A stretch of DNA of 64,000 bases from a virus: positions 1 through 64,000 of IMG/VR virus record IMGVR_UViG_3300014839_000005. One strand, written 5' to 3'. Positions within the stretch are counted from its first letter, which is position 1; every line of letters starts with the position of its first letter. A program made the position numbers and the translations under genes. Below the pieces are notes generated by a model, which made no database searches, was not told the DNA's origin, and saw nothing but the letters and a program-made list of their open reading frames with translations. Shown one piece after another: positions 455 to 52,008 of this stretch.

Positions 455-1804
455 TTATTCGTAGTATATAACGCCATTTGCATTCTGTCTTATCTCTTCA
501 AAAGAATACTCTTTCATAATATTCCCATTAAGATAGACGGTTTGCATCAGGCTGTTATAACTTTCTCCGTTCACTGTTTTTACCTTGCGAAGCATCGACA
601 GCTCCAAATCGAGAATGCCTTTTTTGGATTTCTTGCCAGGGTCAGTTGCTGGATCTTTGTAGACCTCAATATCTTTTCCATCAACTTTAGCCCAGCTGCA
701 TTTGAAGGCAAACTTATTCGTATCCCTGTCAAAGCCTTTTTGAAGCAATCCACCACCCATTCCGAATGCGAGATTGGTAGCGCTGAAATGTATCTTCTCA
801 GCAGCTTCCAAAATTTTCTCCAGAATTTCATCATTGATACCGTCTCCTTGAATTACTCTTACCTTATTCAAGACTTTATATCCTTGATGATTCATTGTAT
901 AACCAAATCGATCACCTAGAATACAAAGAAGCCGGCAAACAACTTCAACAGGATCGCCAGAATCAGGTCTCACAACCAATGTCGCATTCATCTTCATCAC
1001 TTCTTCTTTGAGTTTATCTCCCCAAAGATTTGCTGCGGCATTGTAATTGATCATATTTCTATATGCATCAATCTCGTTGTCTTTCCCCCACATACTCATG
1101 GTGAAATGCTCTGCCACAGGGATGGAGAAACCGGCCATGTTGATGTTGTAATATTTATTGGCCATCCATATACCAGCAATAGTATCCGACCCCATAAAGT
1201 TAACCAAATGAGCTGCCCCACCAATCATTGCCTGTTCCTGACAAGAGACGCCCCTGCTGCCAAAATCATGGAGTTTGAATCCAATTTCGGCATTGGGATT
1301 ATCGGAAGTTTTATTAAGATATTTCTGGATAACACTTTTGACATGCCATCCGTATGTGGCTATAGTAATAGGATACCATAACCTGACCAAAAGTGTTTCA
1401 ATCCACGAAACAATCCCGAAAATATCAGGATCTTCAACGGAAGTCTGGACGGAAAATAGAATGTTATGGGTAGGAATAACGCATCCTTCAGGAACTGCCC
1501 TGATTTTTATAGGAAGCCTTCCTCCATAAGTATTGACAATTTTCATCCATCCATCGTAATTAAAAGGACAACCATGAAGTTGAGCAAATGCTTTTGCTTC
1601 TTCAACTTCAAATCTGGTTATCGGATTCGAAAGATATTTTTTCAGATAATACTGCAAACCGAAGAAAAGTGTTTCTCTCCAACGACCACCACGGCTTTCA
1701 AAATAAGAAAACATCGCAGTAGTCTTGGGAGGATATTGACACCAGTGGGAAAGTTTGTAGCTATCGGTGTCTAAAACCAGGCTAAGGACAAGGCGATTTT
1801 CCAT
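455..1804 (-). CDS. nadV: Nicotinamide phosphoribosyltransferase (NAMPT/NadV family)
   Basis: Makes NMN from nicotinamide and PRPP, the first step of one-step NAD+ salvage. The 449-residue protein is close to the family length (about 470-490). Recognisable blocks are LDTDSYKLSHW near the N-terminus, GFKLHDFGSRG near residue 180, AEHFTM near 230 (the His that is phosphorylated in the family), VVRPDSGDPVEVV near 276, IQGDGIN near 317 and FGMGGGLLQKG near 350. I chose the ATG at 1804 because AAGGAG precedes it; an in-frame start at 1861 would overlap the next gene and lacks such a site. It lies 40 bases downstream of the NMN adenylyltransferase/Nudix gene, so the pair covers nicotinamide to NAD+. 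Such pairs occur in phages (e.g. KVP40) and can rebuild NAD+ drained by host defence; that role here is inferred. Confidence 0.95.
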   Translation of the reverse strand: MENRLVLSLVLDTDSYKLSHWCQYPPKTTAMFSYFESRGGRWRETLFFGLQYYLKKYLSNPITRFEVEEAKAFAQLHGCPFNYDGWMKIVNTYGGRLPIKIRAVPEGCVIPTHNILFSVQTSVEDPDIFGIVSWIETLLVRLWYPITIATYGWHVKSVIQKYLNKTSDNPNAEIGFKLHDFGSRGVSCQEQAMIGGAAHLVNFMGSDTIAGIWMANKYYNINMAGFSIPVAEHFTMSMWGKDNEIDAYRNMINYNAAANLWGDKLKEEVMKMNATLVVRPDSGDPVEVVCRLLCILGDRFGYTMNHQGYKVLNKVRVIQGDGINDEILEKILEAAEKIHFSATNLAFGMGGGLLQKGFDRDTNKFAFKCSWAKVDGKDIEVYKDPATDPGKKSKKGILDLELSMLRKVKTVNGESYNSLMQTVYLNGNIMKEYSFEEIRQNANGVIYYE

Positions 1805-1844
1805 GATAAAACTCCTTTGTTTCAATTCTCTCATTGAGAATCTA

Positions 1845-2861
1845 TTAAAGTTTATTGACAAAATACTGGATTATTGCGAGATGATCTTCAAAGAAATTTT
1901 CTTCTAACAATGCAAGATCATTAATAGGAACCCATTGAGCTGAAGCCGCATCATCGTCTCCTCTTACAACAGGAAGAGGTTTGTCACCATCAAGAACAAA
2001 TAGATAAGCATGAGTTATGCTACGACCACGCAAACTTCGTTTTGGATGGTCAAAAACATGCTGATCTTTGATACAACGCTCAAGAACTGGAAATGGAACA
2101 GCTATTTTTGTCTCTTCCCTTAGTTCCCTGATAGCGCAATGGCTGATAAACTCATCCTGATTCAAGAATCCACCAGGAAGTGCATATCTTCCTTTTCCAG
2201 GTTCGACTTTTCTTGTAACTAAAAGAATATGACCAGCCTGAACGACAACCGCATCAGTTGTTACAAATGTTGGAGGAAATGGGGCAACTCCCCATATTTT
2301 TTTATAAGATTTAATATAATGATACTCATCCTGTAGTCGTTTAAAAGTATCAGTTTTCTTAAAATCATCCAATTCATTTGCAACACGAACTGGGACCATA
2401 TGATCCCATTTATCCGTTTCTCCCAACAGTCTTTCGCGTATTAGCGTTCCATCAATTCTTTCTCCATACGCAAAAACTGCTGGTTGCGGCAAAAGTTTCC
2501 ATTGAGGAAAGAAATTCAGATAGTACGAAGAGTCATCTTTAAAATGACCTATCAAAGAAACATCACCCTCTCCTACCATACTTGCTACGGTATTTTGAAG
2601 TGACGTTATCCATGTAGTATCACTATAAAGAAAATCACGAAGAGGGCGAATAAGAAGTCTGCTGGTTTCTTGCCCCGATAAACTATTATTAATAAAATTT
2701 CGTCGGGACTCAAAATCCCACGGATTTTTTATTGTTGTTGGAGCCCTATAACTTCCAAGAACAACAATAACACGATCTGATTGTTCAAGTGCGGTTTGAA
2801 TGAGGGTTTTGTGGGCGTTATGAAATGGTTGACCGCGCAGTACAAATACTGTATACTTCAT
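1845..2861 (-). CDS. nadM: Bifunctional NMN adenylyltransferase / Nudix hydrolase
   Basis: Two domains in 338 residues. Residues 1-150 are a nucleotidyltransferase fold: RGQPFHNAH at 9-17 is the nucleotide-binding (H/T)xxH region and DGTLIRERL near 138 the second phosphate-binding motif. Residues 195-335 are a Nudix domain with a near-perfect Nudix box (GFLNQDE...RELREETKI, 231-253). Expected reactions are NMN + ATP to NAD+, and hydrolysis of an ADP-ribose-type pyrophosphate. The fused architecture is known in bacteria and in some large phages. First gene of the NAD salvage pair; the start is preceded by AAGGAG. Confidence 0.92.
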   Translation of the reverse strand: MKYTVFVLRGQPFHNAHKTLIQTALEQSDRVIVVLGSYRAPTTIKNPWDFESRRNFINNSLSGQETSRLLIRPLRDFLYSDTTWITSLQNTVASMVGEGDVSLIGHFKDDSSYYLNFFPQWKLLPQPAVFAYGERIDGTLIRERLLGETDKWDHMVPVRVANELDDFKKTDTFKRLQDEYHYIKSYKKIWGVAPFPPTFVTTDAVVVQAGHILLVTRKVEPGKGRYALPGGFLNQDEFISHCAIRELREETKIAVPFPVLERCIKDQHVFDHPKRSLRGRSITHAYLFVLDGDKPLPVVRGDDDAASAQWVPINDLALLEENFFEDHLAIIQYFVNKL

Positions 2862-3101: not shown

Positions 3102-3126
3102 AAAAAAAAGGCTGCGCGATGCAGCC
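3102..3126 (-). terminator. Intrinsic terminator of the Ubl operon
   Basis: Stem GGCTGC/GCAGCC with a short loop (3110-3126), then eight T on the minus strand. It lies 5 bases past the stop codon of gene 3132-3539, closing the operon that starts near 8.9 kb. Confidence 0.85.
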
Positions 3127-3131
3127 TATTT

Positions 3132-3539
3132 TTAATCAGTTTCAGGAATATCAGTCGCTTGAGGAGCAGGAGGTACTGGAGGAATATCACTTTCAGGAAC
3201 TACGTCAGGGTCTGCGTTACTCATTGACGTAAGGATTGCTGCTTCAACCTCTTCAAGATCGTCTGTCTTCTCAAGTTCATTACCATAGTCGTCATAGATA
3301 ATGAATTTAGTTGGCGTGATATCGAGATCGAAATCGATATTCTGAGCCATATCGCATATAAACTCAATTTTGCATCCTGAGTTTGAAGCGATAGCGGATT
3401 CAATATCAGGTTCAACTGATCCAGGTTCCGTATCGTCATCTTTTGGATATGTGCAAATAATACTTGTTACTTTTTCGAGATTAATTAATTGAGTATGATA
3501 TCCGTCAGCTTCTTTTGTGATTACTTTTATTGCTCTCAT
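3132..3539 (-). CDS. Hypothetical acidic protein, last gene of the Ubl operon
   Basis: 135 residues, strongly acidic, with a Pro/Asp-rich C-terminal tail (P-P-V-P-P-A-P near 122-129). No family recognised. It follows the tandem Ubl gene in the same direction with a 71-base gap, and the operon terminator comes straight after. It could be a substrate, adaptor or regulator of the ubiquitin-like pathway, but position is the only argument. Confidence 0.7.
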   Translation of the reverse strand: MRAIKVITKEADGYHTQLINLEKVTSIICTYPKDDDTEPGSVEPDIESAIASNSGCKIEFICDMAQNIDFDLDITPTKFIIYDDYGNELEKTDDLEEVEAAILTSMSNADPDVVPESDIPPVPPAPQATDIPETD

Positions 3540-3610
3540 ATTTCTCCTATACTAGAAATAAAGAAGGGGCTTATTCAGCCCCATCTTCGGTGAAATAACC
3601 AACCGAATGG

Positions 3611-4084
3611 TTAGTTACCTTTGGTTCTCGTGCTCAGAACGAGGCGCACGGGAAGGGCGGCATCTGCGGGTGTCGGAATGGTCGTATCGCCAGAGACCGC
3701 TTCTCCGCCATTGATACGGTATTCATAGACATCCTTACCCTCTTCCGTGTAGAACTTCGCCCTGTCTGCCGGCGGCAGCGTGTTGATCAGGCTTTTGATC
3801 GAAGTGCCTGATTCACAGGGAAGTTCGATGATGGCATCCGTATGCCCGATACGGATGATTTTTACCGTAAAGGGCGTGTTGCCCTTCATAGCGTCGCCGA
3901 TATAGACGACATCGCCGTCTTCGAGTTCGTAGCCACGTTCCACATTCTCCTGGTTCACGGTGATGCAACCAGGCCTGTAGTTCACGTTGGCTTTGTCCAG
4001 AAGGCCTCCAACTGTCGGGTTGTCGGAGATTTCATACTCGATGACCGGCTTACCGATGAGTACTAATTTGACCAGAACACACAT
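3611..4084 (-). CDS. Tandem two-domain ubiquitin-like (beta-grasp) modifier
   Basis: 157 residues that read as two ThiS/ubiquitin-like units. Unit 1 (about 4-69) begins VKLVLIG and ends in KGN; unit 2 (about 72-157) begins FTVKIIRIG and also ends in KGN, at the very C-terminus. Both have the alternating hydrophobic strands and the central Gly/Asp turn expected of beta-grasp proteins. The repeated tail suggests a poly-Ubl precursor that a peptidase trims after the Gly, as with eukaryotic ubiquitin; this is inferred. The downstream E1 and JAMM genes support a protein-modifier role. AAGGAG precedes the start. The gene is visibly more GC-rich than its neighbours. Confidence 0.72.
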   Translation of the reverse strand: MCVLVKLVLIGKPVIEYEISDNPTVGGLLDKANVNYRPGCITVNQENVERGYELEDGDVVYIGDAMKGNTPFTVKIIRIGHTDAIIELPCESGTSIKSLINTLPPADRAKFYTEEGKDVYEYRINGGEAVSGDTTIPTPADAALPVRLVLSTRTKGN

Positions 4085-4101
4085 GATAGAACTCCTTAAG
4101 G

Positions 4102-4863
4102 TTATATTGACTTGAATTGGCGATACATATGATCATAATGTTCGCCATCTGCTGCAACACATTCGGGAAATACAAACTGCAGTTCACTAAGAACCTTTGG
4201 TGCAGTAGCTTCACCGCGTTTCAGATATTCTTTTCCATACTTCAGATCAAAGTGATGGATAAGCCTCCAAACCGCTCGACTGGCTAGATTATATACGGTT
4301 GGTATTATTGACGCAGATGCGCCACATGCCGATACTTCGGCCTGATCGTCATCGTATAATGTCTTTTGCCATTCTTCAACTTCGACTGGATTATTTGGAT
4401 CAAAGGCATAGACCCTACCTTTATCTATACCCATTCTCGTCTCAATAACCAAATCGGTGGTGAATGAATACTGTAAAACGTTCTTAAATATATCCTTTCT
4501 ACTGGCCATGGTATCGGTCAATAGAAAGACATAAGTTGATCTTACATCGTTTTGGTTAGTGACCATTTCATTGTGAGTCTCAATAGTAAAGCCGCACTTG
4601 CGCATAATCACATCAGCAAGTGCCATTACTTTTGGCATACCAATGTGACTTCGATCATACGCCTGATTGACTAAATTATGCTCCTCAACAATATCACCAT
4701 CCCACACTTTCATTGTTCCTTGGCCTTGGACTGAGTTGCCCCAGCCCATTTGAGCTAATTGGAGAGCTACATATGAGCCCGTTGCTCCGACACCGATAAT
4801 TGCTACGCTTTTCTTTCCAATTTGACTTGGATCGAGTAGCGCTAATTGCCTCGAATAATCCAT
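4102..4863 (-). CDS. E1-like (ThiF/MoeB family) Ubl-activating enzyme
   Basis: About 253 residues covering a single ThiF-type adenylation domain. Visible features are the nucleotide-binding loop GVGATG (about 24-29) after a beta strand, VWDGD (about 53-57, ATP ribose contact), HNLVNQAY (about 62-69, equivalent to the N-x-x-R-Q region of E1s) and a candidate catalytic cysteine in SACGASA (about residue 180). No CxxC zinc pairs are seen. Expected reaction: adenylate the C-terminal Gly of the Ubl encoded upstream in this listing and pass it to its Cys. I chose the ATG at 4863; the GTG two codons earlier is less likely. It lies between the JAMM and Ubl genes. Confidence 0.88.
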   Translation of the reverse strand: MDYSRQLALLDPSQIGKKSVAIIGVGATGSYVALQLAQMGWGNSVQGQGTMKVWDGDIVEEHNLVNQAYDRSHIGMPKVMALADVIMRKCGFTIETHNEMVTNQNDVRSTYVFLLTDTMASRKDIFKNVLQYSFTTDLVIETRMGIDKGRVYAFDPNNPVEVEEWQKTLYDDDQAEVSACGASASIIPTVYNLASRAVWRLIHHFDLKYGKEYLKRGEATAPKVLSELQFVFPECVAADGEHYDHMYRQFKSI

Positions 4864-4875
4864 AAACACCTCTTT

Positions 4876-5679
4876 CTATTTTGTAAACTCAAAAGCGTAT
4901 GAGTGTTTATGTTTATTTTTCTTACTTCTTTTTCCTCCAGCAAAGTAATTTTCCCTCGGTGTATACGTGGTATCAGGCCCATAATGCTTGACTATTCCAC
5001 GATTAGGAAGTGGGGGAGTCCCAAATCCCATTCTTCTTTGATTCCAGTCATCAACTCCTTCTCCATATAACTCATCACTGAAACCGTTGCTGAGAGGATA
5101 TGATGGCGTGGTGGGAAGATTTACCGCTTTCAATTCGAGGATTTTTGCCCTTATCTTTTTATCCTCTTCATCTTCATCGGTTTCCCATTTGATATTATCA
5201 AAACGACGTTTGTTCTGATAATCGTAAAATGAGATAGACAGCAATCCTGCCTTGTTGAAAATGCCTCGGATAAGATAAGATTCGTTTCTATTCATTCTTT
5301 CAATTGACTGAGTCTCATCCTGTCCTGAAGGAGAAACTCCCATATCGACATGGGAGTGTCCCCAGAACTTCGCCTTGCTTAAATCGGCTTCTCTGTTATG
5401 AGTCATCAGCCATTCAGCCATCAATGTTTCACCTTCGGGGGAGATTTCACACGTGGCTCCTGCAGCTTCAGAGTGTTTGGGATAAAAGATATCCCTGATA
5501 ACGTATGTATTGTTTTCAAGTTCGTCTACAAAACCAAATACGCCGACTTCATGAGGATGAAGATCGGCAATAGCAGTCAACCATTTCAAGGCATTACCTG
5601 TAACCCTGATTGTAGGTGCTGTTATTTTAATTGGTTCGAGAGTTGTGTAAGTTGTTTGTTTAGCTGGTTCTGGCTTCAT
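4876..5679 (-). CDS. JAMM/MPN-family (JAB) isopeptidase
   Basis: 267 residues with a complete JAMM zinc site: Glu44 in HPHEVGVFG, then H108-S-H110 with seven residues to S118 and two more to D121 (WGHSHVDMGVSPSGQD). This is the E...HxHx7Sx2D signature of active deubiquitinase-type metallopeptidases. The likely job is to mature the tandem Ubl at its KGN tails and/or to remove it from targets. The C-terminal 100 residues are basic and of unknown role. The start overlaps the end of the upstream gene by 20 bases, implying coupled translation within the operon. Confidence 0.9.
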   Translation of the reverse strand: MKPEPAKQTTYTTLEPIKITAPTIRVTGNALKWLTAIADLHPHEVGVFGFVDELENNTYVIRDIFYPKHSEAAGATCEISPEGETLMAEWLMTHNREADLSKAKFWGHSHVDMGVSPSGQDETQSIERMNRNESYLIRGIFNKAGLLSISFYDYQNKRRFDNIKWETDEDEEDKKIRAKILELKAVNLPTTPSYPLSNGFSDELYGEGVDDWNQRRMGFGTPPLPNRGIVKHYGPDTTYTPRENYFAGGKRSKKNKHKHSYAFEFTK

Positions 5680-6781
5680 TTGCTTCCTCCACTATTGGCC
5701 ACATTTGAATAGGGCGACCCATCACATCATCTTCATTGGGAGTGCGAATATATCTCACCAATAAATCGACGAGCTGTTCCAGGTCTTTGTTAATCAGACA
5801 TTTTAATATCGGCTCAGTCCATGTTCCGAAACAGGGTTGGCCAACAAGATTAACATGACCGCATTCTTGACCAGCATTTAAGTCTTCTCTTGTGCGGTTT
5901 CGTATGATAATCGGAGGTTCATTTGTTACTCTGGTTCCCAGCATGGCGTCAAGCCTTACATAGAATTCCATTTCACCAATATCTCTCTTCTTACCATCTT
6001 TTAACGGGTTGGTTATGATGTGGTCGGTTTTAATTACGAGATAATTGTTGGTAAAGTAAATTTCCTTTATCATATTATGCTCGTTTTTTACCAATCCATC
6101 AATTTTTTCCCTGAATAACGAAACAATGGGATCCGCTCCGAGCGAACTTGATAACCTTGTAATTTCATTCTGCATAGTCATAAGATTGGCCATTAGTCTG
6201 TTATACTGAGCAGTTCTATCCGTCAGCATTTTGGCCCGACCTGCAGCGTCATTATCAAGTTTGGAAGCAATTAACGTTGTCAGATTTTCAGGAGTGATTT
6301 TTTCAAGATTTGGAAGCCCTCTTAATGAATTGTGTTCTGACCCATCTTTGGGAACGTCACGGAATGCGGGATGTTCTTTTTGGCATGTACAGCGATCAAT
6401 CAATTCCTCACAATCCTCACATCTTTCGCAATCGCAATCCGAAAGAAGGTGATCACATGCCGGACATCTTGGTTCTTCATCAACCTGTCCAGGAGCAGGT
6501 GTTGCACCTGCATTTTGGGCAGTTTGTCGTTGCTGCTGCTCGGCTGCAGTTACTATGGCATAACTGTATTCGACAATGCCGTTATTAGCATGTGTTGTTA
6601 TCGGTCTGCCGAAATGATTGCTAATTGCAATCCTTAGCAACTCAACAGTGGGTGCGTCAAGTATGTCAAACTTGAACTCACCGCTGGTTTCCCCAAAATT
6701 CCCTTTTGCATACCTGAAAATACTTTCAGGTATTGTAGCGAGAGTAAAACGAAACTCTCGCTTTAATAGTACAGTTACCAT
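5660..6781 (-). CDS. Zinc-cluster protein with C-terminal E2-like domain
   Basis: 373 residues. Residues 1-80 form a small alpha/beta domain. Residues 106-133 hold eight cysteines (CPAC, CDC, CEDC, CTC) that could bind two zincs. The C-terminal domain has H309, C317, then DLEQLV, PNEDD (348-352) and WP. This resembles the ubiquitin-conjugating (E2) core, where an H-P-N segment precedes the catalytic Cys and an L-L-x-x-PN-x-DD helix follows. The same residues occur with identical spacing in the next gene upstream (6790-8829), so the two share a domain. E2 function is inferred; a RING/E3-like role for the Cys cluster is also possible. Confidence 0.6.
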   Translation of the reverse strand: MVTVLLKREFRFTLATIPESIFRYAKGNFGETSGEFKFDILDAPTVELLRIAISNHFGRPITTHANNGIVEYSYAIVTAAEQQQRQTAQNAGATPAPGQVDEEPRCPACDHLLSDCDCERCEDCEELIDRCTCQKEHPAFRDVPKDGSEHNSLRGLPNLEKITPENLTTLIASKLDNDAAGRAKMLTDRTAQYNRLMANLMTMQNEITRLSSSLGADPIVSLFREKIDGLVKNEHNMIKEIYFTNNYLVIKTDHIITNPLKDGKKRDIGEMEFYVRLDAMLGTRVTNEPPIIIRNRTREDLNAGQECGHVNLVGQPCFGTWTEPILKCLINKDLEQLVDLLVRYIRTPNEDDVMGRPIQMWPIVEEANEARTS

Positions 6782-6789
6782 TCTTCCTC

Positions 6790-8829
6790 CTATACAGGAA
6801 TTGCCCCAGCCAATACTTCATCAAAGTGTTGGTCTTCGGGCTTGTTTATAAATTCAGCCTTTTCAGGTTCTTTTTCAGTCGCTTTTTGTTCTTGCAACCT
6901 TATCATTTCCTCCGAAATTTCGGGCCAACAATTTACATATTTGCCGGCTGCATCATCGGTATTCGCTTGTTGCAAAAACAGAATTAACTGAAGTACTAGT
7001 TGATACAAATCCCTTTTCTTATATGCATTTGTCATACCAATTGCCAAAGTTCCATGACAAATGTGTCCATCCTGGAATACATGAGGAGCCTGCATATTTT
7101 GACCGCTGAAAGCTACTATCTGATGCTTCGTGTTCTTAATGAGGACAGTATTGTCGGTATTGTATGAATTGGAGTGCATTCCAATGGTAATATGGAACGT
7201 TCCAATATCATGCATCTTTTTACTTCTGTCATCACGGGCATACAAGTCATCAGTATATACATGAACAGTTTCGTCTTTGATGAAGACGGTCTTTACTTTT
7301 GGAATAGACTTTACCGCAGTGTATTCATCAAATGCTTTTTTCCGCATCTTTGTCTGCTGTTCAGACTCATTAAAAGATTCAATTTGTTCCATGTATTTTG
7401 AACACATTTTTCCAGATTCCATAGCCTTGGTCAAATAATCTTCATACGCAGCCTTTGCATCCTCATATGCCTTCTTCAACTGACGAATGACGGAACTGGA
7501 ACTGTCCATGACAAATTTAATATATTCATCACAGTTTCCCTTTTCCAGAATAGCCTGATAATTACTGTCGATTTTCAGCAATTCAGAATATGGAACTAAA
7601 CCGTCAAACCGTCTTGCTATTTCACTCATAGCTGTTTTTGCAAACTTCTTATTATCATATGCGTTAAACATCAATATGATAATATTCCGTTCTTGTAATG
7701 CAAATACGACATTAGTCGCAGTATCCTTATAAATTTTATCGTATTTTGCATATGGTGAGTTTCTTTGTTCGGCGAATATTTTATCTATCGCTTCTTTTTT
7801 GGCGTCTGAACTCATGGATCCATCTTTAATAGCCTGAATCTCTTTGTTTACATCATTACCTTTAATAATGGCAAGATTATGAATTTCAGTTCCAAAAGCA
7901 GTGGACTTAATCTCACTGATAGTGTTGGTAATATCTGTATAACCACTTTGCGCACCATTAGTAGCGATAAATAAAAAAGATTGATTTACAATAGACTTAG
8001 AACTCAACGCTTTCTTTGCCTCCATAAGCCATCTTCTGTCGTCGCCTATAATAAGATGACATTTTACTTGATTGGCAAAATCAAATAGAAAACTATCATC
8101 AAATACTTCTGGAGCAGCGCGTAGTTTACATACCTTGAATTTGCTGTCATTTTTACTTTCGAAGCGAAATCCTATAGTATGTAACTGTTGCAATCGCTCA
8201 TCAACAGTTTCAGATACTTTATCCAGCGCTTCTGCTAAAGTGGTTTTATGCCTTTTCACTGTACGCCTTCCTCCTTCATCTTCCACATTTTCCATAACCT
8301 CTTCAGCCATCGTTTCTGCCAATCCTCTCACAGTTCCTCGTAATCTTTCCTCTGCAGCTCGACGTTCTGGCGCAGGACCTATACCTCCAGTTGGTTGTGC
8401 CATATCCTCAGGCCTTATAACACGAACCATTGGTTCAGGTTCTTCAGGCATTGGTTCTTCAGCATAGGCAGTTCTGATTTCTCTTTCAAAGTTAGCCACA
8501 TCAAACCTTTGAGTGCCAACCCCTGCCTCTTGAATAGCTTCATACGTTGTTGTCTCTTTTACTGAACCATTAGTTAGACTATTAAGAATGTCATCGTTGT
8601 AATAATATTTATGAATGATCACTCTCATCCCTACAATGTCGGCTTCCTTATCAAGAGGCATTAAACGGTCAGAATCTCCTGCAAGTTCCCATACCCTTTG
8701 AAGAGCGCCCAGGACTCTGATATAATAGTTCTTTGTTATCATAGCGGCTACTCCGCCGCCATTTAGCACAAATGGCTCAAACGGAATTCCGAGAACCAGC
8801 GCCAACCTTTCCTCGATAAATCCGAACAT
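6790..8829 (-). CDS. Large protein with C-terminal E2-like domain
   Basis: 679 residues, first gene of the Ubl operon. The N-terminal part is unrecognised. Residues 150-260 are charged, the middle is alpha/beta, and 440-510 is coiled-coil rich. The C-terminal domain has H583, then Cys591 eight residues later (PHVFQDGHICHG), DLYQLV, NTDD and WPEI. These match gene 5660-6781 position for position (H to C 8 residues, C to DL 16, then N-x-DD and WP). The H...C and following helix resemble an E2 active site. The promoter-like element at 8890-8924 lies just upstream. Family assignment needs structure prediction. Confidence 0.6.
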   Translation of the reverse strand: MFGFIEERLALVLGIPFEPFVLNGGGVAAMITKNYYIRVLGALQRVWELAGDSDRLMPLDKEADIVGMRVIIHKYYYNDDILNSLTNGSVKETTTYEAIQEAGVGTQRFDVANFEREIRTAYAEEPMPEEPEPMVRVIRPEDMAQPTGGIGPAPERRAAEERLRGTVRGLAETMAEEVMENVEDEGGRRTVKRHKTTLAEALDKVSETVDERLQQLHTIGFRFESKNDSKFKVCKLRAAPEVFDDSFLFDFANQVKCHLIIGDDRRWLMEAKKALSSKSIVNQSFLFIATNGAQSGYTDITNTISEIKSTAFGTEIHNLAIIKGNDVNKEIQAIKDGSMSSDAKKEAIDKIFAEQRNSPYAKYDKIYKDTATNVVFALQERNIIILMFNAYDNKKFAKTAMSEIARRFDGLVPYSELLKIDSNYQAILEKGNCDEYIKFVMDSSSSVIRQLKKAYEDAKAAYEDYLTKAMESGKMCSKYMEQIESFNESEQQTKMRKKAFDEYTAVKSIPKVKTVFIKDETVHVYTDDLYARDDRSKKMHDIGTFHITIGMHSNSYNTDNTVLIKNTKHQIVAFSGQNMQAPHVFQDGHICHGTLAIGMTNAYKKRDLYQLVLQLILFLQQANTDDAAGKYVNCWPEISEEMIRLQEQKATEKEPEKAEFINKPEDQHFDEVLAGAIPV

Positions 8830-8889
8830 AATTCCTCCTAATTAAAAAAAATTAAGTTTATAATTAATTAACTAATTAATATTACCTAC

Positions 8890-8924
8890 ATTATAGTTAT
8901 TACAGAAATGGAATTGAAATAACA
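8890..8924 (-). promoter_or_regulatory. Promoter-like element of the Ubl operon
   Basis: AGTTAT (8895-8900), 18 bp, ATAACA (8919-8924). On the minus strand the element runs into a perfect TATAAT -10. It lies 61 bp upstream of the start of gene 6790-8829. Confidence 0.75.
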
Positions 8925-8930
8925 GAGGAA

Positions 8931-45610: not shown

Positions 45611-45648
45611 TTGCCACATTTTATGTATTTTCATTGTATACTATATTA
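45611..45648 (+). promoter_or_regulatory. Possible plus-strand promoter of the RNA polymerase gene
   Basis: TTGCCA (45611-45616) and TATACT (45637-45642) are 20 bp apart, longer than ideal. Lies in the only gap between the divergent genes. Weak. Confidence 0.3.
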
Positions 45649-45660
45649 ATTAGGAGTTTT

Positions 45661-48600
45661 ATGGCTATACCATCCCACCAAGACATACTTAAGAAGCTCA
45701 GCGACTTAGACACTTCGACCAGATCCAACGTTCTGATGAATGAGACTATTAAGAATACGGTAGGAAAGATATTGTCCTCAGTAGAGAATCCTAATATAAA
45801 ATTGCAGGTCAATGACATATGGTATAAACAAAAATACGATAATGACGACATCGCTGCCCAACAATCTGTTAGAAATAAACATCAGAACTGGACTGACGAT
45901 ATCAGGGCTGATGTATCGTTAATTGATAAAGCCACTGGAAAAATCATTGATCGTAATAAAGATTTAAAGATAACTAGCGTCCCAAAATTAACTCCTCGCA
46001 ATACCTATCTCATCGGCGGTAACGAATATTCTTTCACTAAACAGAGCCGTTTAAAACCTGGTGTATATACTAGAAGGCAGGAAAATGGCGAAATTAGTTC
46101 GTTTTTTAATGTCGATAAAACTATCGATTTTGATCGTGGTTTCAATAATAATTTTAAGCTTAATTTCAATCCTGAGCGTAAGACATTTACTATGGGTTAT
46201 GGTTCAAAAAATATACCCTTATATAATGCTCTTAAAGCGGTAGATATAAAAGATGAAGATTTGATGGATAAATGGGGAAAAGATGTCGTAGAGGCAAATA
46301 GACAGGCTTATGAAAAACATGAGTTCAGGGACCAAGCAAAATTGTATGAAGCAATATTTGGTAAAGCCGCTCCTGATACTATGACTCACGATCAATTAAA
46401 AAAAGAAATTAAAGATAGGTTATTTGCGACAAAATTAAGTTCTGAAACTACAAAACTGACCCTTGGAAAAGAATATGATGGAGTGAATAAAGATGTCCTT
46501 TTAGATGCTTCTAAAAAGATTATTGATATTCATAAAGGTGAGACAGAGGGAGATGATAGAGAGTCATTGTTGTATAAATCGTTTTACGATATTGAAGATC
46601 ATGCAAGAGAAAATTTGGTTAAAAAAAGCAAGAATATTATTGGGAGTTTGATTTATAAATTAGATAAAACTAAGAACATTAATAAATCAATAAGCTCGGG
46701 ATTCTTTGACCCGTATGTGATTGGCACAATAACAAAGAATATGTTATCAAGTCCTCCCAGTCAAACAAATATTATGTCTATGATTGGGGACGGAAATAAA
46801 GTCACTGTTATGGGTGAGGGCGGTATTGGTAATGAAAATGCCGTTACTAACCAAACAAGACAATTATCCAACAGTGAAGCTGGATTTATTGATCCATTAC
46901 ATACTCCTGAAGGCGGAAATATTGGAGTTACAAATCATTTAACCATCGGCACAATTAAAGTCGGTAATGATATTTATAATTCATTTCTTAAACTTAATGG
47001 AGAAAAAGTTCTTTACCGCCCTGTTGATACCCACCCTTTAAATATTGCCTTCCCAGACCAATATGATTTATCCAGTAAAAAGCCTGAACCTCTTAGCAAT
47101 AAGATTAAAGTGTTAAATCATGGAAAATTTAAAGAAGTAAAGCCCGAAGAAGTTGATGCTATTATGGCAAGTCATGTCAACATGTTCGACCACTCAGCTA
47201 ATATGATTCCATTTCTTGATTCCATACAGCCTAATAGGGGATTAACAGCGTCAAAAATGCAGGAACAGGCCCTTACCCTTAAATTTAGAGATAAACCATT
47301 ATTTAATCTTATCAATGAAAAAGGTCAAAGTTTAAACGAAAATTTAGGTCGCGTATCTCCCACTCCACGATCTCCTGTAGATGGTGAAGTTGTGGCAATT
47401 AACCCGAATTTAATAACATTACAAGATAAGCGTGGAAATAAAGTAAAAGTACAATTATACAATAATTTTTCATTAAATGCTGAAGGCTTTATTCATAATG
47501 AGCCAGTAGTAAAAATTGGCGATAAGGTTACAAAAGATCAATTACTTGCTGATAATAATAATACTAAAAATGGTCAGATAGCATTAGGAGCTAATCTTAA
47601 AGTTGCTTACATGCCATACAAAGGCTACAATTATGAAGATTCCGCTATTATGTCTGAAAGCGCCGCAAAGAAATTAACATCTGAACACATCTATGATTTT
47701 AGCGCTAAGAAATCTGCAAACGGCCATTTTTCTAAAAACAAGTTTAGAGCATATTATCCTGAAATAATTAATACGAAACAAGCTGCAAAACTTGACTCTG
47801 ATGGTGTAATTCACCCAGGGCAGGAAGTCGACCATGGAGACGTACTGATAGCTCATCTTGAGCGAAAGGCCCCCACAGCTGATGACATAGCCCTAGGAAG
47901 GCTTGAGAAGCAACTTCGCAGAGATATGGCTAATAAGGCTGTTACTTGGGATAATGACCATAAAGGGGTCGTTACAAGCGTTGCTAAACATGGTAATACA
48001 GTTACTGTAAGTGTTAAAACTGAGGAACCTCTTAAAATTGCCGATAAAATATCGGGTTTACATGGTAATAAGCATATCATCTCCAAAATAATACCTGATC
48101 ATGAAATGCCATTTAATCCCAAAACTGGTGAGTATATGGATCTCACCATGAGCCCAATTGGTGTTTCCAATAGGATTAATACTTCTCAATTACTTGAAGC
48201 TGCTGCTGGTAAAATAGCTACTAAAACTGGAAAACAATATGAAGTAAGAAATTTTACTCAAAGTGACAATACTGAGAGAGTTTTAAATGATTTGAAAAAA
48301 AATGATTTATCAGATAAAGATATTTTAGTCGATCCGCAATCTGGTCAACCATTTAAAAATCCTATTATGAATGGTGTTTCTCATATATTAAAACTTGAAC
48401 ATAAAGTTGACCATAAATTCTCTGCAAGATATAGGGATGGACATGATTCTAATGAACAAGCCATTACTGGTGGAGAAGAGGGCGGTAAAAATCTTGGTAG
48501 AATGGAAGTAGGAGCTTTATTAGCTAGAGGCGCTACAGAAAATCTTAAAGAAATGTTTAATATTAAAGGCCAAAAGAATAATGAGTATTGGAAAGCCCTT

Positions 48601-51600
48601 GAAACTGGAGATATGCTTCCTCCGCCGGCACCATCTTTTGTTTGGAATAAACAAATAGCAATGATGCAAGGTGCTGGAATTAATGTCGTTCAAAAGGGAA
48701 AACAACTTAATCTTAAACCTATTACTGATGAAGAGATAAAAGATTTATCTAATGGTAAATTAGAGAATCCAACAGATACATATAGAAAAAAAGACCTTGC
48801 TCCTATTAAGGGTGGATTATTCGATCCTGTTAAAGCTGGTGGTATGCAAGGTGAACATTATACACATTTTGAACTTCCCGAAAAGGTGCTTAATCCTATT
48901 ACCGCTACCGCCGCGTCTACTATGCTTGATCTTACTTTAGATGGCCTTGAAGATATTATTAATGGGAAACAATTTGTTGACCAGGATTCTGGAAAACTTG
49001 TAAAGCCTGGAACGCCCAATTCTTTTTCAGGCGGTCCTGCTGTTGAAAAATTATTAAGTCAAATCAATGTTAATAAGGAACTAGAACAACTTGAAAATGA
49101 TAGTAAAGTAATTACAAATAAAACACAATTGAATAAGATTCATAGAAAAATCAGATATTTTAAATCCTTACAACAAAACAAAATGAATCCAACTGATTAC
49201 ATGATAAAAAATGTATTAGTTGTTCCATCAAAATTCAGACCAATGTTTACTATGGGTACTGACAATACAGTAATTATGTCGGATGTGAATGATTTATATC
49301 AACAAACTGCTTATACTGCTGAAGCTCTTAAGGATTTAAAAGATACCTTAAATGAAACAATTAAAGATGATAATATAAAACATATTCAACTTGCTGAGAG
49401 TAGAGGACAGTTATATCAAGATGTTAAAGCCCTTGCCGGATTAAGAGAACCAACAGCATTTTTACATAGAAGTAAGAATAAAAAAGGCTTTGTTGCTCAA
49501 ATAGATGGTGGAAAAAAGCAAACTAAAGAAGGTTTTTTCCAGGATAAGGTTATTGAGAAAAGACAAGACTTGGTTGGACGTTCAACTATTATTCTTAATC
49601 CAGAACTTGGTGGAGATCAAATTGGAATTCCCAAATTAATGGCAAATAAAATTTTTCAGCCATTTATAATGCAAAAATTAGTAAGTTGGGGATATAATCC
49701 TCTTGAGGCACAAAAACAAATTGAAGATGATACTCCTGTATTTCAAAGAGCACGTCAAGTAGTATCTGATGAACGATTAGTTATAGCTAATAGGGCCCCT
49801 TCTTTACACCGTTGGAATATGACCGCATTTAAACCTATTCTTACCGACGGCAAATCAATAGAAGTACCAGCAACATCGATACATCAAAATTTCAATGGCG
49901 ACTTTGATGGCGACTGTTTTCAAATTCATGTTCCTATAGGTGTTAAAGCTCTTGAAGAAGCTAAGAAAATGACACCATCATCTAGTATGTTAAAAACTGG
50001 ATTTGACACCGTCCTGAATAAACCTGATTTAGATATGGTAGTTGGAAGTTGGCTTATGTCGCAGGGTAGAGGCGGAAAGGCTATTAATTTAAAATATGAT
50101 TCTATTGATAAAGCAAGACAGGATTTTAAGCAGAATAAATTTACTTATGGTGACACTATTACCGTAGATGGAATTAAAGCTCCATTTGGTCTGCATGAGA
50201 TTAATTCAGTTCTTCCTGAAGATGTTAGAAAATATGATATTGAGTTAACTGGAAAAAATATTGATAATTGGATTAAAGATACCACGTTAAAACACTCTGG
50301 AAACATGGGATTAACTTTAGCTGATAAAATTAAAGATATTGGTAATAATTATTCTACTGCTTATGGATACAGTCTTGGATTAAATGATGTTAGGACTGTG
50401 AGAGATATTCGAGATCCATTATTGGTTGAAGCTAATAGTAAAATGGATAAAAAAAATCCTTTTAGTATTATCAAAGAAATTGCTAATGTAAAAGATAAAA
50501 TGATTAAATTACTTCCTGGAAGATTAAATCCCGACAATCCACTTGTGATTGCGGCTTCATCTGGTGGTGGTAGGGGATATGAAAATTCATCTCAAATAGT
50601 GGGTATGCCAGGAATAGTACTTGATGCTGATGATAGGCCAATTCCGATGCCTATTACAAAGTCTTATTCAGAAGGTCTGGATACTTCTGCTTATTGGGCT
50701 GCATCACATGGGGCAAGAGGTGCTAATATTAAAAAATCAATTCAGTCGTACAAACCTGGATGGATGACAAAAGATTTGATGAATTCAATTTATGACACAA
50801 GAATTCATCATGATATTCCAGTTGATACTGAAGGATTGGAATATAGCATTGATAATAGAAAACATGTTATGAATCGTTATTTGGCAAAAGATATAAAAGA
50901 TAGTCAAGGTAAAATTATAGCAAAACGAAATGATATCGTTGATGGAGATTTGATTAGTAAATTAAACAAAATGAAAATTAATAGTATTTTTGTTCAGTCT
51001 CCATTAACAGACCCAACTCCTGGAGATGGTATATCAAGTTGGTCATATGGAGTTGAAAATGATGGAAAGCGTTTAAAATCTGGAGATCATATTGGTGTTA
51101 TGAGCGCACACACTATTACAGAGCCATCACTTAATATGTCTATGAAAGCGTTCCATAGTGGCGGCGCTATGACTGGAACAACAGTAAATACCAAAGGTTC
51201 GGTATTTGATGCATTGGACAGAACCCTTAGATTCACTCAGGCTGTTCCTGATAAAGCTACAATGTCTACTGGTGATTCAAAAATTAAAAGTATTGAAAAA
51301 TCATCTATTGGCGGTTGGGATGTTGTTCTGGAACATAATGATGGTAGAGAAGAAACTAGATATATTGAACCAAACAATACTCCTATTATTAAAGTTGGAG
51401 ATAAGGTTAAAAAGGGCGATTTACTTTCTACTGGTAATGTGTCAATGCATGATGTACTTAAATATAAAGGAATGAAGGAAACGCAAAAATTTCTTGTTGA
51501 TGAACTTGACAAATTGAATGAAGGAAAACTAGATAGAAGAAATATTGAAGTTCTTGTACGTGGTATTGCAAATACTACAAGAGTGATGAATCCAGGCGAT

Positions 51601-52008
51601 AGTGGGTATGTTGCTGGAGATACAGTTCCATTAACTACTATTAATGATTTTAATAAGAATCTCATAACCGAAAAGGATGTAGAGGAAACTGAAGGTATGA
51701 GATTGAATAAACCTTATGCTGGATTTGATATTGGAATAAAACTTGATAAGTCCGCTATTAAACATTTACAGAAAAAAGGTATTAAAAGAATAGAAGTAAC
51801 AAGAAATCCTATTATTCATGATCCATTTCTTGCCCCAGCTGGGATTGGCGGAAAAATAGCCTCTGCAAGTGAAGACTGGATCGCAAGAATGGCGCATAAT
51901 AGAATTGAAGCAGTTCTCAAAGAGGGTGCTACCCAAGGATGGAAAAGTTCTTTTGATGATAAAAATAAGAATCATCCGATTTCATTATTAGTTATGAATA
52001 AAATGTAA
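45661..52008 (+). CDS. Single-chain beta-beta' RNA polymerase (multi-subunit type)
   Basis: About 2115 residues. The N-terminal half is beta: HTPEGGNIGVTNHLTIG near 414, YKGYNYEDSAIMSESA near 650 and DKISGLHGNKHI near 795. The second half is beta': GGMQGEHYTHFELP near 1060, RAPSLHRW near 1380, the catalytic NFNGDFDGD near 1410-1418 (three metal-binding Asp), the bridge-helix/trigger-loop region SGGGRGYENSSQ near 1634 and SHGARG near 1682, and a C-terminal GGAMTGT segment. So both catalytic subunits are in one chain with no stop or frameshift between. No alpha or sigma partner is seen in the window. It probably transcribes phage genes, in the virion or late in infection. The ATG at 45661 has TTAGGAG upstream; the earlier frame start at 45634 overlaps the putative promoter. 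Confidence 0.95.
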   Translation: MAIPSHQDILKKLSDLDTSTRSNVLMNETIKNTVGKILSSVENPNIKLQVNDIWYKQKYDNDDIAAQQSVRNKHQNWTDDIRADVSLIDKATGKIIDRNKDLKITSVPKLTPRNTYLIGGNEYSFTKQSRLKPGVYTRRQENGEISSFFNVDKTIDFDRGFNNNFKLNFNPERKTFTMGYGSKNIPLYNALKAVDIKDEDLMDKWGKDVVEANRQAYEKHEFRDQAKLYEAIFGKAAPDTMTHDQLKKEIKDRLFATKLSSETTKLTLGKEYDGVNKDVLLDASKKIIDIHKGETEGDDRESLLYKSFYDIEDHARENLVKKSKNIIGSLIYKLDKTKNINKSISSGFFDPYVIGTITKNMLSSPPSQTNIMSMIGDGNKVTVMGEGGIGNENAVTNQTRQLSNSEAGFIDPLHTPEGGNIGVTNHLTIGTIKVGNDIYNSFLKLNGEKVLYRPVDTHPLNIAFPDQYDLSSKKPEPLSNKIKVLNHGKFKEVKPEEVDAIMASHVNMFDHSANMIPFLDSIQPNRGLTASKMQEQALTLKFRDKPLFNLINEKGQSLNENLGRVSPTPRSPVDGEVVAINPNLITLQDKRGNKVKVQLYNNFSLNAEGFIHNEPVVKIGDKVTKDQLLADNNNTKNGQIALGANLKVAYMPYKGYNYEDSAIMSESAAKKLTSEHIYDFSAKKSANGHFSKNKFRAYYPEIINTKQAAKLDSDGVIHPGQEVDHGDVLIAHLERKAPTADDIALGRLEKQLRRDMANKAVTWDNDHKGVVTSVAKHGNTVTVSVKTEEPLKIADKISGLHGNKHIISKIIPDHEMPFNPKTGEYMDLTMSPIGVSNRINTSQLLEAAAGKIATKTGKQYEVRNFTQSDNTERVLNDLKKNDLSDKDILVDPQSGQPFKNPIMNGVSHILKLEHKVDHKFSARYRDGHDSNEQAITGGEEGGKNLGRMEVGALLARGATENLKEMFNIKGQKNNEYWKALETGDMLPPPAPSFVWNKQIAMMQGAGINVVQKGKQLNLKPITDEEIKDLSNGKLENPTDTYRKKDLAPIKGGLFDPVKAGGMQGEHYTHFELPEKVLNPITATAASTMLDLTLDGLEDIINGKQFVDQDSGKLVKPGTPNSFSGGPAVEKLLSQINVNKELEQLENDSKVITNKTQLNKIHRKIRYFKSLQQNKMNPTDYMIKNVLVVPSKFRPMFTMGTDNTVIMSDVNDLYQQTAYTAEALKDLKDTLNETIKDDNIKHIQLAESRGQLYQDVKALAGLREPTAFLHRSKNKKGFVAQIDGGKKQTKEGFFQDKVIEKRQDLVGRSTIILNPELGGDQIGIPKLMANKIFQPFIMQKLVSWGYNPLEAQKQIEDDTPVFQRARQVVSDERLVIANRAPSLHRWNMTAFKPILTDGKSIEVPATSIHQNFNGDFDGDCFQIHVPIGVKALEEAKKMTPSSSMLKTGFDTVLNKPDLDMVVGSWLMSQGRGGKAINLKYDSIDKARQDFKQNKFTYGDTITVDGIKAPFGLHEINSVLPEDVRKYDIELTGKNIDNWIKDTTLKHSGNMGLTLADKIKDIGNNYSTAYGYSLGLNDVRTVRDIRDPLLVEANSKMDKKNPFSIIKEIANVKDKMIKLLPGRLNPDNPLVIAASSGGGRGYENSSQIVGMPGIVLDADDRPIPMPITKSYSEGLDTSAYWAASHGARGANIKKSIQSYKPGWMTKDLMNSIYDTRIHHDIPVDTEGLEYSIDNRKHVMNRYLAKDIKDSQGKIIAKRNDIVDGDLISKLNKMKINSIFVQSPLTDPTPGDGISSWSYGVENDGKRLKSGDHIGVMSAHTITEPSLNMSMKAFHSGGAMTGTTVNTKGSVFDALDRTLRFTQAVPDKATMSTGDSKIKSIEKSSIGGWDVVLEHNDGREETRYIEPNNTPIIKVGDKVKKGDLLSTGNVSMHDVLKYKGMKETQKFLVDELDKLNEGKLDRRNIEVLVRGIANTTRVMNPGDSGYVAGDTVPLTTINDFNKNLITEKDVEETEGMRLNKPYAGFDIGIKLDKSAIKHLQKKGIKRIEVTRNPIIHDPFLAPAGIGGKIASASEDWIARMAHNRIEAVLKEGATQGWKSSFDDKNKNHPISLLVMNKM

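Follow-up and report, generated by a model that had tools for sequence, protein, structure and literature searches.

We analysed a 64,000-nt stretch of viral DNA, hereafter the window, taken from IMG/VR record IMGVR_UViG_3300014839_000005. Six consecutive minus-strand genes in it (8829-3132; products P0006 to P0001, Table 1) are predicted to form a self-contained, phage-encoded system for the conjugation and deconjugation of a ubiquitin-like protein (Ubl), and we put the probability that they act as a working cascade at about 0.83. The gene set, the folds, the invariant candidate residues, the KGN junctions of the Ubl and the co-occurrence of the genes in other phages come from sequences and models; the chemical steps and their order are what we infer from them.

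A predicted tandem Ubl with its activating enzyme and peptidase

The AlphaFold2 model of P0002 (predicted local distance difference test, pLDDT, 83) contains two beta-grasp-like domains. In a Foldseek search with this model the top ranks went to polyubiquitin, linear di-ubiquitin and ISG15, and FAT10 came lower (probability 1.00). Domain 1 ends in MKGN (Gly68), and domain 2 ends in TKGN, which is the C-terminus of the protein. Scans of Pfam, PHROGs, NCBIfam and PADLOC with P0002 alone gave nothing firm; a profile of the family matched SAMP2 among solved structures at 2.5e-5, and ThiS was matched as well. The glycine of the C-terminal region is present in 48 of 48 Ubls and the lysine in 44 of 48, and most single Ubls end in KGN, or in KG followed by a few residues. 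Tandem Ubls were also found in L042 and L070, L004 and the window have two more divergent repeats, and L025 has three repeats that each end in QIKGN; KGN or KGS ends every repeat. This tandem or triple layout, encoded alongside a JAMM peptidase, could be that of a precursor cut after glycine, as in polyubiquitin.

P0003 passed the curated cut-off of the ThiF family in Pfam (PF00899, E 8e-17). When the profile of this activating enzyme (E1) family was compared with solved structures, the best match was UBA5 (2e-19), and ThiF and MoeB were also matched. The candidate catalytic cysteine, Cys182, is invariant in 80/80 relatives, and the GxGxxG loop and the acidic residues are kept in the homologues. 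P0004 alone had no direct family match in the same four scans. It carries the JAMM signature HSH-x7-S-x2-D at residues 108-121 together with Glu44, and its family profile matched JAMM1 among solved structures at 9e-8. The two histidines, the serine and the aspartate are invariant in 84/84 relatives, an invariance that is partly due to selection, as the loci were mainly picked through the JAMM motif.

Two proteins with a conjugating enzyme-like domain

Residues 426-679 of P0006 were modelled by AlphaFold2 (pLDDT 88, predicted template modelling score, pTM, 0.73) as a coiled coil, a beta meander, an active-site loop and helices. The leading PDB matches of this model in Foldseek were the conjugating enzymes (E2s) UBE2A, UBE2S, UBE2L6 and UbcH7 and other E2s, with probabilities up to 0.99. 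Against viral models the best matches were unnamed or uncharacterised proteins, some of them from tailed phages, and a giant-virus E2 stood lower down. The active-site motif of P0006, PHVFQDGHICHG, contains His583 and Cys591 and is followed by an N-x-x-D-x-A-G motif. P0005 is homologous to this family across its E2-like domain by sequence comparison and retains the histidine and the cysteine (GHVNLVGQPCFG, Cys317). Eukaryotic E2s have the active-site motif HPN...Cys, and the His-to-Cys spacing of the phage motif, HPHVxxxGxxCxG, equals theirs. Both residues are invariant in 80/80 family members and the glycine after the cysteine is present in 79/80, membership being decided by a profile that itself includes the motif. 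Scans of the four databases with the E2s alone returned nothing firm.

P0005 also has an N-terminal cluster of eight cysteines (Cys106-Cys133), which is a possible zinc site. An assignment of the cysteine clusters as RING domains was rejected, as none of the RING models tried passes. A tree of the E2 domains was weakly supported and placed P0005 on a long branch. Most relatives have one E2 per locus, and the two in the window are the exception; in another locus (L075:2828-7900) a 1690-aa (amino acid) protein matching the E2 profile lies beside JAMM, ThiF and Ubl genes.

An earlier interpretation of the window from its letters alone (the sequence-only reading) had called these proteins a tandem Ubl, a ThiF/E1 enzyme with a glycine-rich loop and a candidate catalytic cysteine, a JAMM peptidase with an intact zinc site, and two proteins with an E2-like domain. 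These assignments are borne out, and none of the outcomes named beforehand as refuting them occurred: the genes are open frames where they were placed, both halves of 3611-4084 model as beta-grasp-like, the E1 residues are conserved, the JAMM signature is complete, and an E2-like fold is modelled in P0006, with P0005 joined to it by sequence.

Recurrence of the gene set in other phages

A JAMM-motif scan of 2.9 million viral contigs yielded 98 confirmed relatives, and the best 80 of them were retrieved. Once some repeats had been dropped and the window, five phage records and viral loci found earlier had been included, the set comprised 83 loci; some are near-duplicates, and the counts are of non-independent events. 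E1, E2 and Ubl were not used as selection criteria. ThiF was found in 80 of the 83 loci, E2 in 76 and a detectable Ubl in 46, all on the strand of the JAMM gene and at median distances from it of 3, 0 and 1050 bases, respectively. All four components were present in 43/83 loci. The sequence-only reading had proposed a search for the same gene order in other phages; the gene set recurs in dozens of them, on one strand and in several gene orders. Because of this conservation, we consider the question of chance assembly settled by the sequence comparison, in the negative. Among 84,980 cellular genomes there were only 13 JAMM loci, 13/13 with E2 and ThiF matches, which is consistent with a mainly phage-borne system.

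Several loci depart from the common layout. L066 and L084 each hold two adjacent cassettes or partial cassettes: L066 has two each of Ubl, E2 and JAMM, while L084 has an additional JAMM as well as a multi-Ubl-like protein of 245 aa. In 11 loci of one group (L015, L080, L081, L083, L085, L086, L088 and L097-L100) a small Ubl-like protein of a second type, ending in K-x-D-N in place of KGN, is encoded upstream of the cassette. In two cellular assemblies (L118, L119) the E2 and ThiF matches are broken over several short frames, which may reflect decay, a reassigned stop codon or misassembly.

Relatives of the JAMM protein also occur in crAss-like and other cultured phages, namely Kolpuevirus, crAss001, DAC15/17, PhiCrAssBcn phages and Flavobacterium FpV phages. 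Three of these loci were examined (L014, L016, L017), and in them JAMM is followed by ThiF and preceded by an E2-related protein, which aligned with the E2 domain at 83% probability in hhalign (E 9e-6) with HSH and the cysteine aligned. Ahead of it lies a protein whose N-terminal stretch ends in a conserved KSG and is followed by an extension. By its sequence this stretch is a candidate Ubl-like domain; a PDB search with it gave no match. Existing annotations of the divergent cassette genes read thiamine biosynthesis protein, metalloprotease or hypothetical. In the Xanthomonas jumbo phage PhiXhv-15, ThiF stands beside a protein of 892 aa that has an HPH...CLG motif and whose tail is rich in cysteine. 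We lean towards the view that a large, undescribed class of phages, crAss001 and DAC15 included, has its own Ubl cascade for reversible tagging during infection, made up of poly-Ubl precursors, an E1, a JAMM deconjugase and E2s of the HPN type that carry their own adaptor modules.

A main survey of crAss-like phages mentions neither ThiF nor ubiquitin (PMC7886860). Our literature search, which did not cover the recent Bil/Bub work, found no published description of the cassette as a phage system. Descriptions of Ubl tagging in bacteria have until now concerned mainly host defence or plasmid-borne systems; a complete cassette conserved in many phages would mean that viruses tag proteins too. 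Such tagging could readily be tested in the cultured Bacteroides and Flavobacterium phages that carry a related cassette. If the proposal is true, a separate E1 and E2, a polyubiquitin-like precursor and a JAMM peptidase would add to the record of how eukaryote-like ubiquitin pathways arise, and the cassette might offer an orthogonal tagging chemistry.

Proposed mechanism and alternative explanations

We propose that the JAMM peptidase would trim the tandem Ubl after the glycine of its Lys-Gly-Asn motifs, giving a Ubl with a Lys-Gly end. The ThiF/E1 enzyme would adenylate this glycine and load the Ubl onto Cys182, from where it could be transferred to Cys591 of P0006, Cys317 of P0005 or both. 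The E2s would then join the Ubl to lysines of target proteins, the coiled-coil and zinc-like modules that flank the E2 domains here and in many relatives may act as target-binding or ligase (E3)-like parts, and JAMM would strip the Ubl off again. As a tentative guess, the targets might be phage or host proteins at the replication/recombination machinery, because the cassette lies near SNF2 helicase, nuclease, primase or uracil-DNA glycosylase genes here and in several other phages.

A number of results weigh against a conjugation cascade of this kind. The Ubl was not detected by profile in 37/83 loci, and the Ubl-like protein ending in K-x-D-N that occurs in 11 loci lacks the glycine. The structural E2 matches of P0006 are weak by E-value (best 0.011), and because this stands beside probabilities of up to 0.99 we grade its modelled E2 fold as good but not overwhelming. 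A search of PDB sequences with the E2 profile returned no significant solved E2; its first round gave coiled-coil noise, and a second search gave non-significant hits only, two of which were to E2 W and aligned at HPH...Cys (E about 1). No E3 was recognised, the cysteine clusters fitting no RING model convincingly. As for the suggested targets, which are drawn from gene neighbourhood, a search seeded with the window proteins detected SNF2, VRR-nuclease or PD-DEXK relatives in no more than about one locus in three. Conjugate, thioester and cleavage are predicted from residues and folds.

The matches of the Ubl profile to SAMP2 and ThiS, and of the E1 profile to ThiF and MoeB among others, would also suit a sulfur carrier, in which a ThiS/MoaD-like Ubl, processed by the JAMM, donates a thiocarboxylate for the thiolation of a cofactor, tRNA or DNA. 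We consider this hardly likely at all: an E2-like protein with an invariant cysteine, needless for sulfur transfer, is present in 76/83 loci, no thiolation enzyme was recognised among the scanned flanking genes, and UBA5, the best E1 match, is a conjugation E1. The same chemistry could instead serve counter-defence, with the Ubl machinery or the JAMM peptidase undoing or sabotaging host Ubl or other defences. Hosts do employ ubiquitin-like conjugation against phages (PMC10097602), and the adjoining salvage of nicotinamide adenine dinucleotide (NAD) is a proposed measure against NADase defences (PMC9503650). We regard this use as rather unlikely, since deconjugation would need JAMM only, yet the phages have retained E1, E2 and Ubl, all with their residues intact, and the NAD genes are not conserved as neighbours.

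Bil defence systems consist of a tandem Ubl, an E2, a JAB (JAMM-type) peptidase and an E1, and this composition resembles that of the cassette. A phage-borne defence that excludes superinfection by tagging proteins of competing phages is nevertheless improbable in our judgement: in the annotated phages examined the cassette lies amid replication genes, not in an accessory region, and no Bil-named match appeared in the NCBIfam and PADLOC scans, although it is uncertain whether these include Bil models. Capture of a PRTRC cassette by a phage would account for a profile-profile match of the E1s at 99.6% (E 7e-25), for the relative order Ubl-E2-JAB-E1 that some phages share with PRTRC and for the Lys-Gly at or near the end of both Ubls. 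We disfavour it as very improbable, as hhalign gave a probability of 7.7% for the E2 (PRTRC protein B) and 0.2% for the Ubl (protein C), which share the Lys-Gly end alone in the latter case, and as PRTRC ParB and ParB_N (TIGR03734, PF02195) and PRTRC_B (TIGR03737) are unmatched across the whole record, which may itself be incomplete.

Gene layout and neighbouring genes

Table 1. Predicted features of the cassette, in window coordinates
Feature	Position	Strand	Description
P0006	6790..8829	-	679 aa; a long N-terminal region, then a coiled coil, then an E2-like domain at the C-terminal end (about residues 490-660)
P0005	5660..6781	-	373 aa; N-terminal Cys cluster and second E2-like domain
P0004	4876..5679	-	267 aa; JAMM/MPN+ metallopeptidase; HSHVDMGVSPSGQD
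P0003	4102..4869	-	255 aa; ThiF/E1-like adenylating enzyme; GxGxxG, D57/D59, K80, candidate catalytic Cys182
P0002	3611..4084	-	157 aa; tandem Ubl
P0001	3132..3539	-	135 aa; acidic; cassette membership by position only
Intrinsic-terminator-like hairpin, then T run	3109..3127	-	directly after P0001
AT-rich leader, 101 bases, AGGAGG ahead of start	8830..8930	-	upstream of P0006; candidate promoter region

The gaps between the genes, from P0006 to P0001, are 8, -20, 6, 17 and 71 bases, the negative value marking the overlap of the P0004 gene with the end of P0005, and purine-rich sequences resembling ribosome sites precede five of the six genes. As the relatives of P0003 begin MDYSRQ, its probable start is the ATG at 4863. 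The sequence-only reading had described one promoter-to-terminator unit starting at 8924. The terminator-like hairpin supports the end of this unit, but no promoter stood out, the search for one giving 28 matches against 20.3 +/- 5.1 by chance, and the first gene in fact begins at 8829. Third-position G+C is 63% in the Ubl gene (3611-4084) compared to 26-38% in neighbouring genes and a GC of 34% for the window, which may reflect high expression or a recent origin of the gene by acquisition. A near-identical second contig, IMGVR_UViG_3300037086_000397, carries the region from the P0005 E2 domain through P0001 at 99-100% identity and stops before P0006; outside it, no relatives of P0001 were found.

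The 128.5-kb record belongs to a tailed phage, and the sequence-only reading was right to speak of a phage. Outside the window it encodes a GpA-type terminase (E 6e-58; detected with phrog_675, while the families phrog_2 (terminase) and phrog_12 (portal) gave no match), and it has matches to a head-maturation protease and, more weakly, to a tail sheath (E 4e-5). Within the window, a NAMPT/NadV-like gene and an adenylyltransferase-NUDIX (NadM-like) gene (455-2861, minus strand) form an NAD salvage pair of a known kind; such genes are common in phages (PMC9503650). Their adjacency to the cassette, pointed out earlier, is real but not conserved, NAMPT being near few relatives only, and NAD salvage was rejected as a functional partner of the cassette because the neighbourhood is not conserved among loci. 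A single 2124-aa frame (45634-52008, plus strand) joins domains of RNA polymerase beta (Rpb2) to those of beta-prime (Rpb1) and, by its sequence, is a phage-encoded fused RNA polymerase of the multisubunit type. In L122 (5973-9020, minus strand), the ribonucleotide reductase large subunit is split by an intein-like LAGLIDADG insert.

Comparison with known systems

None of the five operon types described by Iyer et al. 2006 equals the present cassette, nor does the Ubl-JAB pair of phage tails that they also list (PMC1779556). The sequence-only reading had taken the plasmid PRTRC cassette as ThiF, JAB and Ubl. PRTRC, operon type 6d, also encodes an E2 (protein B/Prok-E2_D; PMC1779556), usually in the order ParB-E-C-F-B-A-ThiF, so the combination of E1, E2, JAB and Ubl is not in itself unprecedented. 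Both cassettes have a separate E1, E2 and JAB and a small Ubl with Lys-Gly towards its end, and the E1s are clearly homologous. However, the type 6d E2 lacks a histidine at the classical position (PMC1779556), whereas the phage E2 has HPH...Cys, with the histidine upstream at the classical spacing. KGN is the usual end of the phage Ubl, which can be tandem, and the cassette is carried by phages, not plasmids. P0003 scored 39.6 bits with the PRTRC ThiF model (cut-off 144.75), placing it outside that family although homologous, and the JAB protein A matched the phage JAMM in hhalign at 76%, limited to the motif. Membership in PRTRC was rejected, given the ThiF score below cut-off, the unmatched E2 and Ubl profiles and the absence of ParB and PRTRC_B.

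In type II CBASS (cyclic oligonucleotide-based antiphage signalling system), the E1 domain is homologous (PADLOC E1-E2 models, best 1e-11) and a JAB partner, Cap3, is present, but E1 and E2 are fused in Cap2 and are separate genes in the phage cassette. CBASS conjugates the cGAS enzyme itself (PMC10097602), whereas the phage modifier is a beta-grasp protein; in PADLOC, Pfam and NCBIfam scans, none of the six cassette proteins matched a CD-NTase (cGAS/DncV-like nucleotidyltransferase). The lambda TAPI/TAPK pair likewise combines a phage Ubl with a JAB peptidase (PMC1779556), but E1 and E2 are not described there and the pair belongs to tail genes rather than a conjugation cascade.

Archaeal SAMP2 and JAMM1 are the best solved sequence relatives of the phage Ubl and JAMM. 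To our knowledge, SAMPylation proceeds without an E2. Compared by description, Bil/Bub operons share with the cassette an E1, E2, JAB and Ubl in one operon, so that the composition of a Bil operon is matched by gene content alone, and the tandem Ubl recalls ISG15; the present cassette differs in being phage-encoded, often near DNA-metabolism genes, and in its poly-Ubl junctions. It has the general components of Ubl conjugation, namely a beta-grasp modifier with a terminal glycine (possibly after processing), an E1 and a complete JAMM zinc site, together with an E2 fold, moderately matched, that has a catalytic cysteine and an HPN-like histidine. Together, these residues and folds suggest that the cassette works like a Ubl-conjugation system whose membership in PRTRC, Bil or CBASS is not established, and PRTRC is its nearest named cassette.

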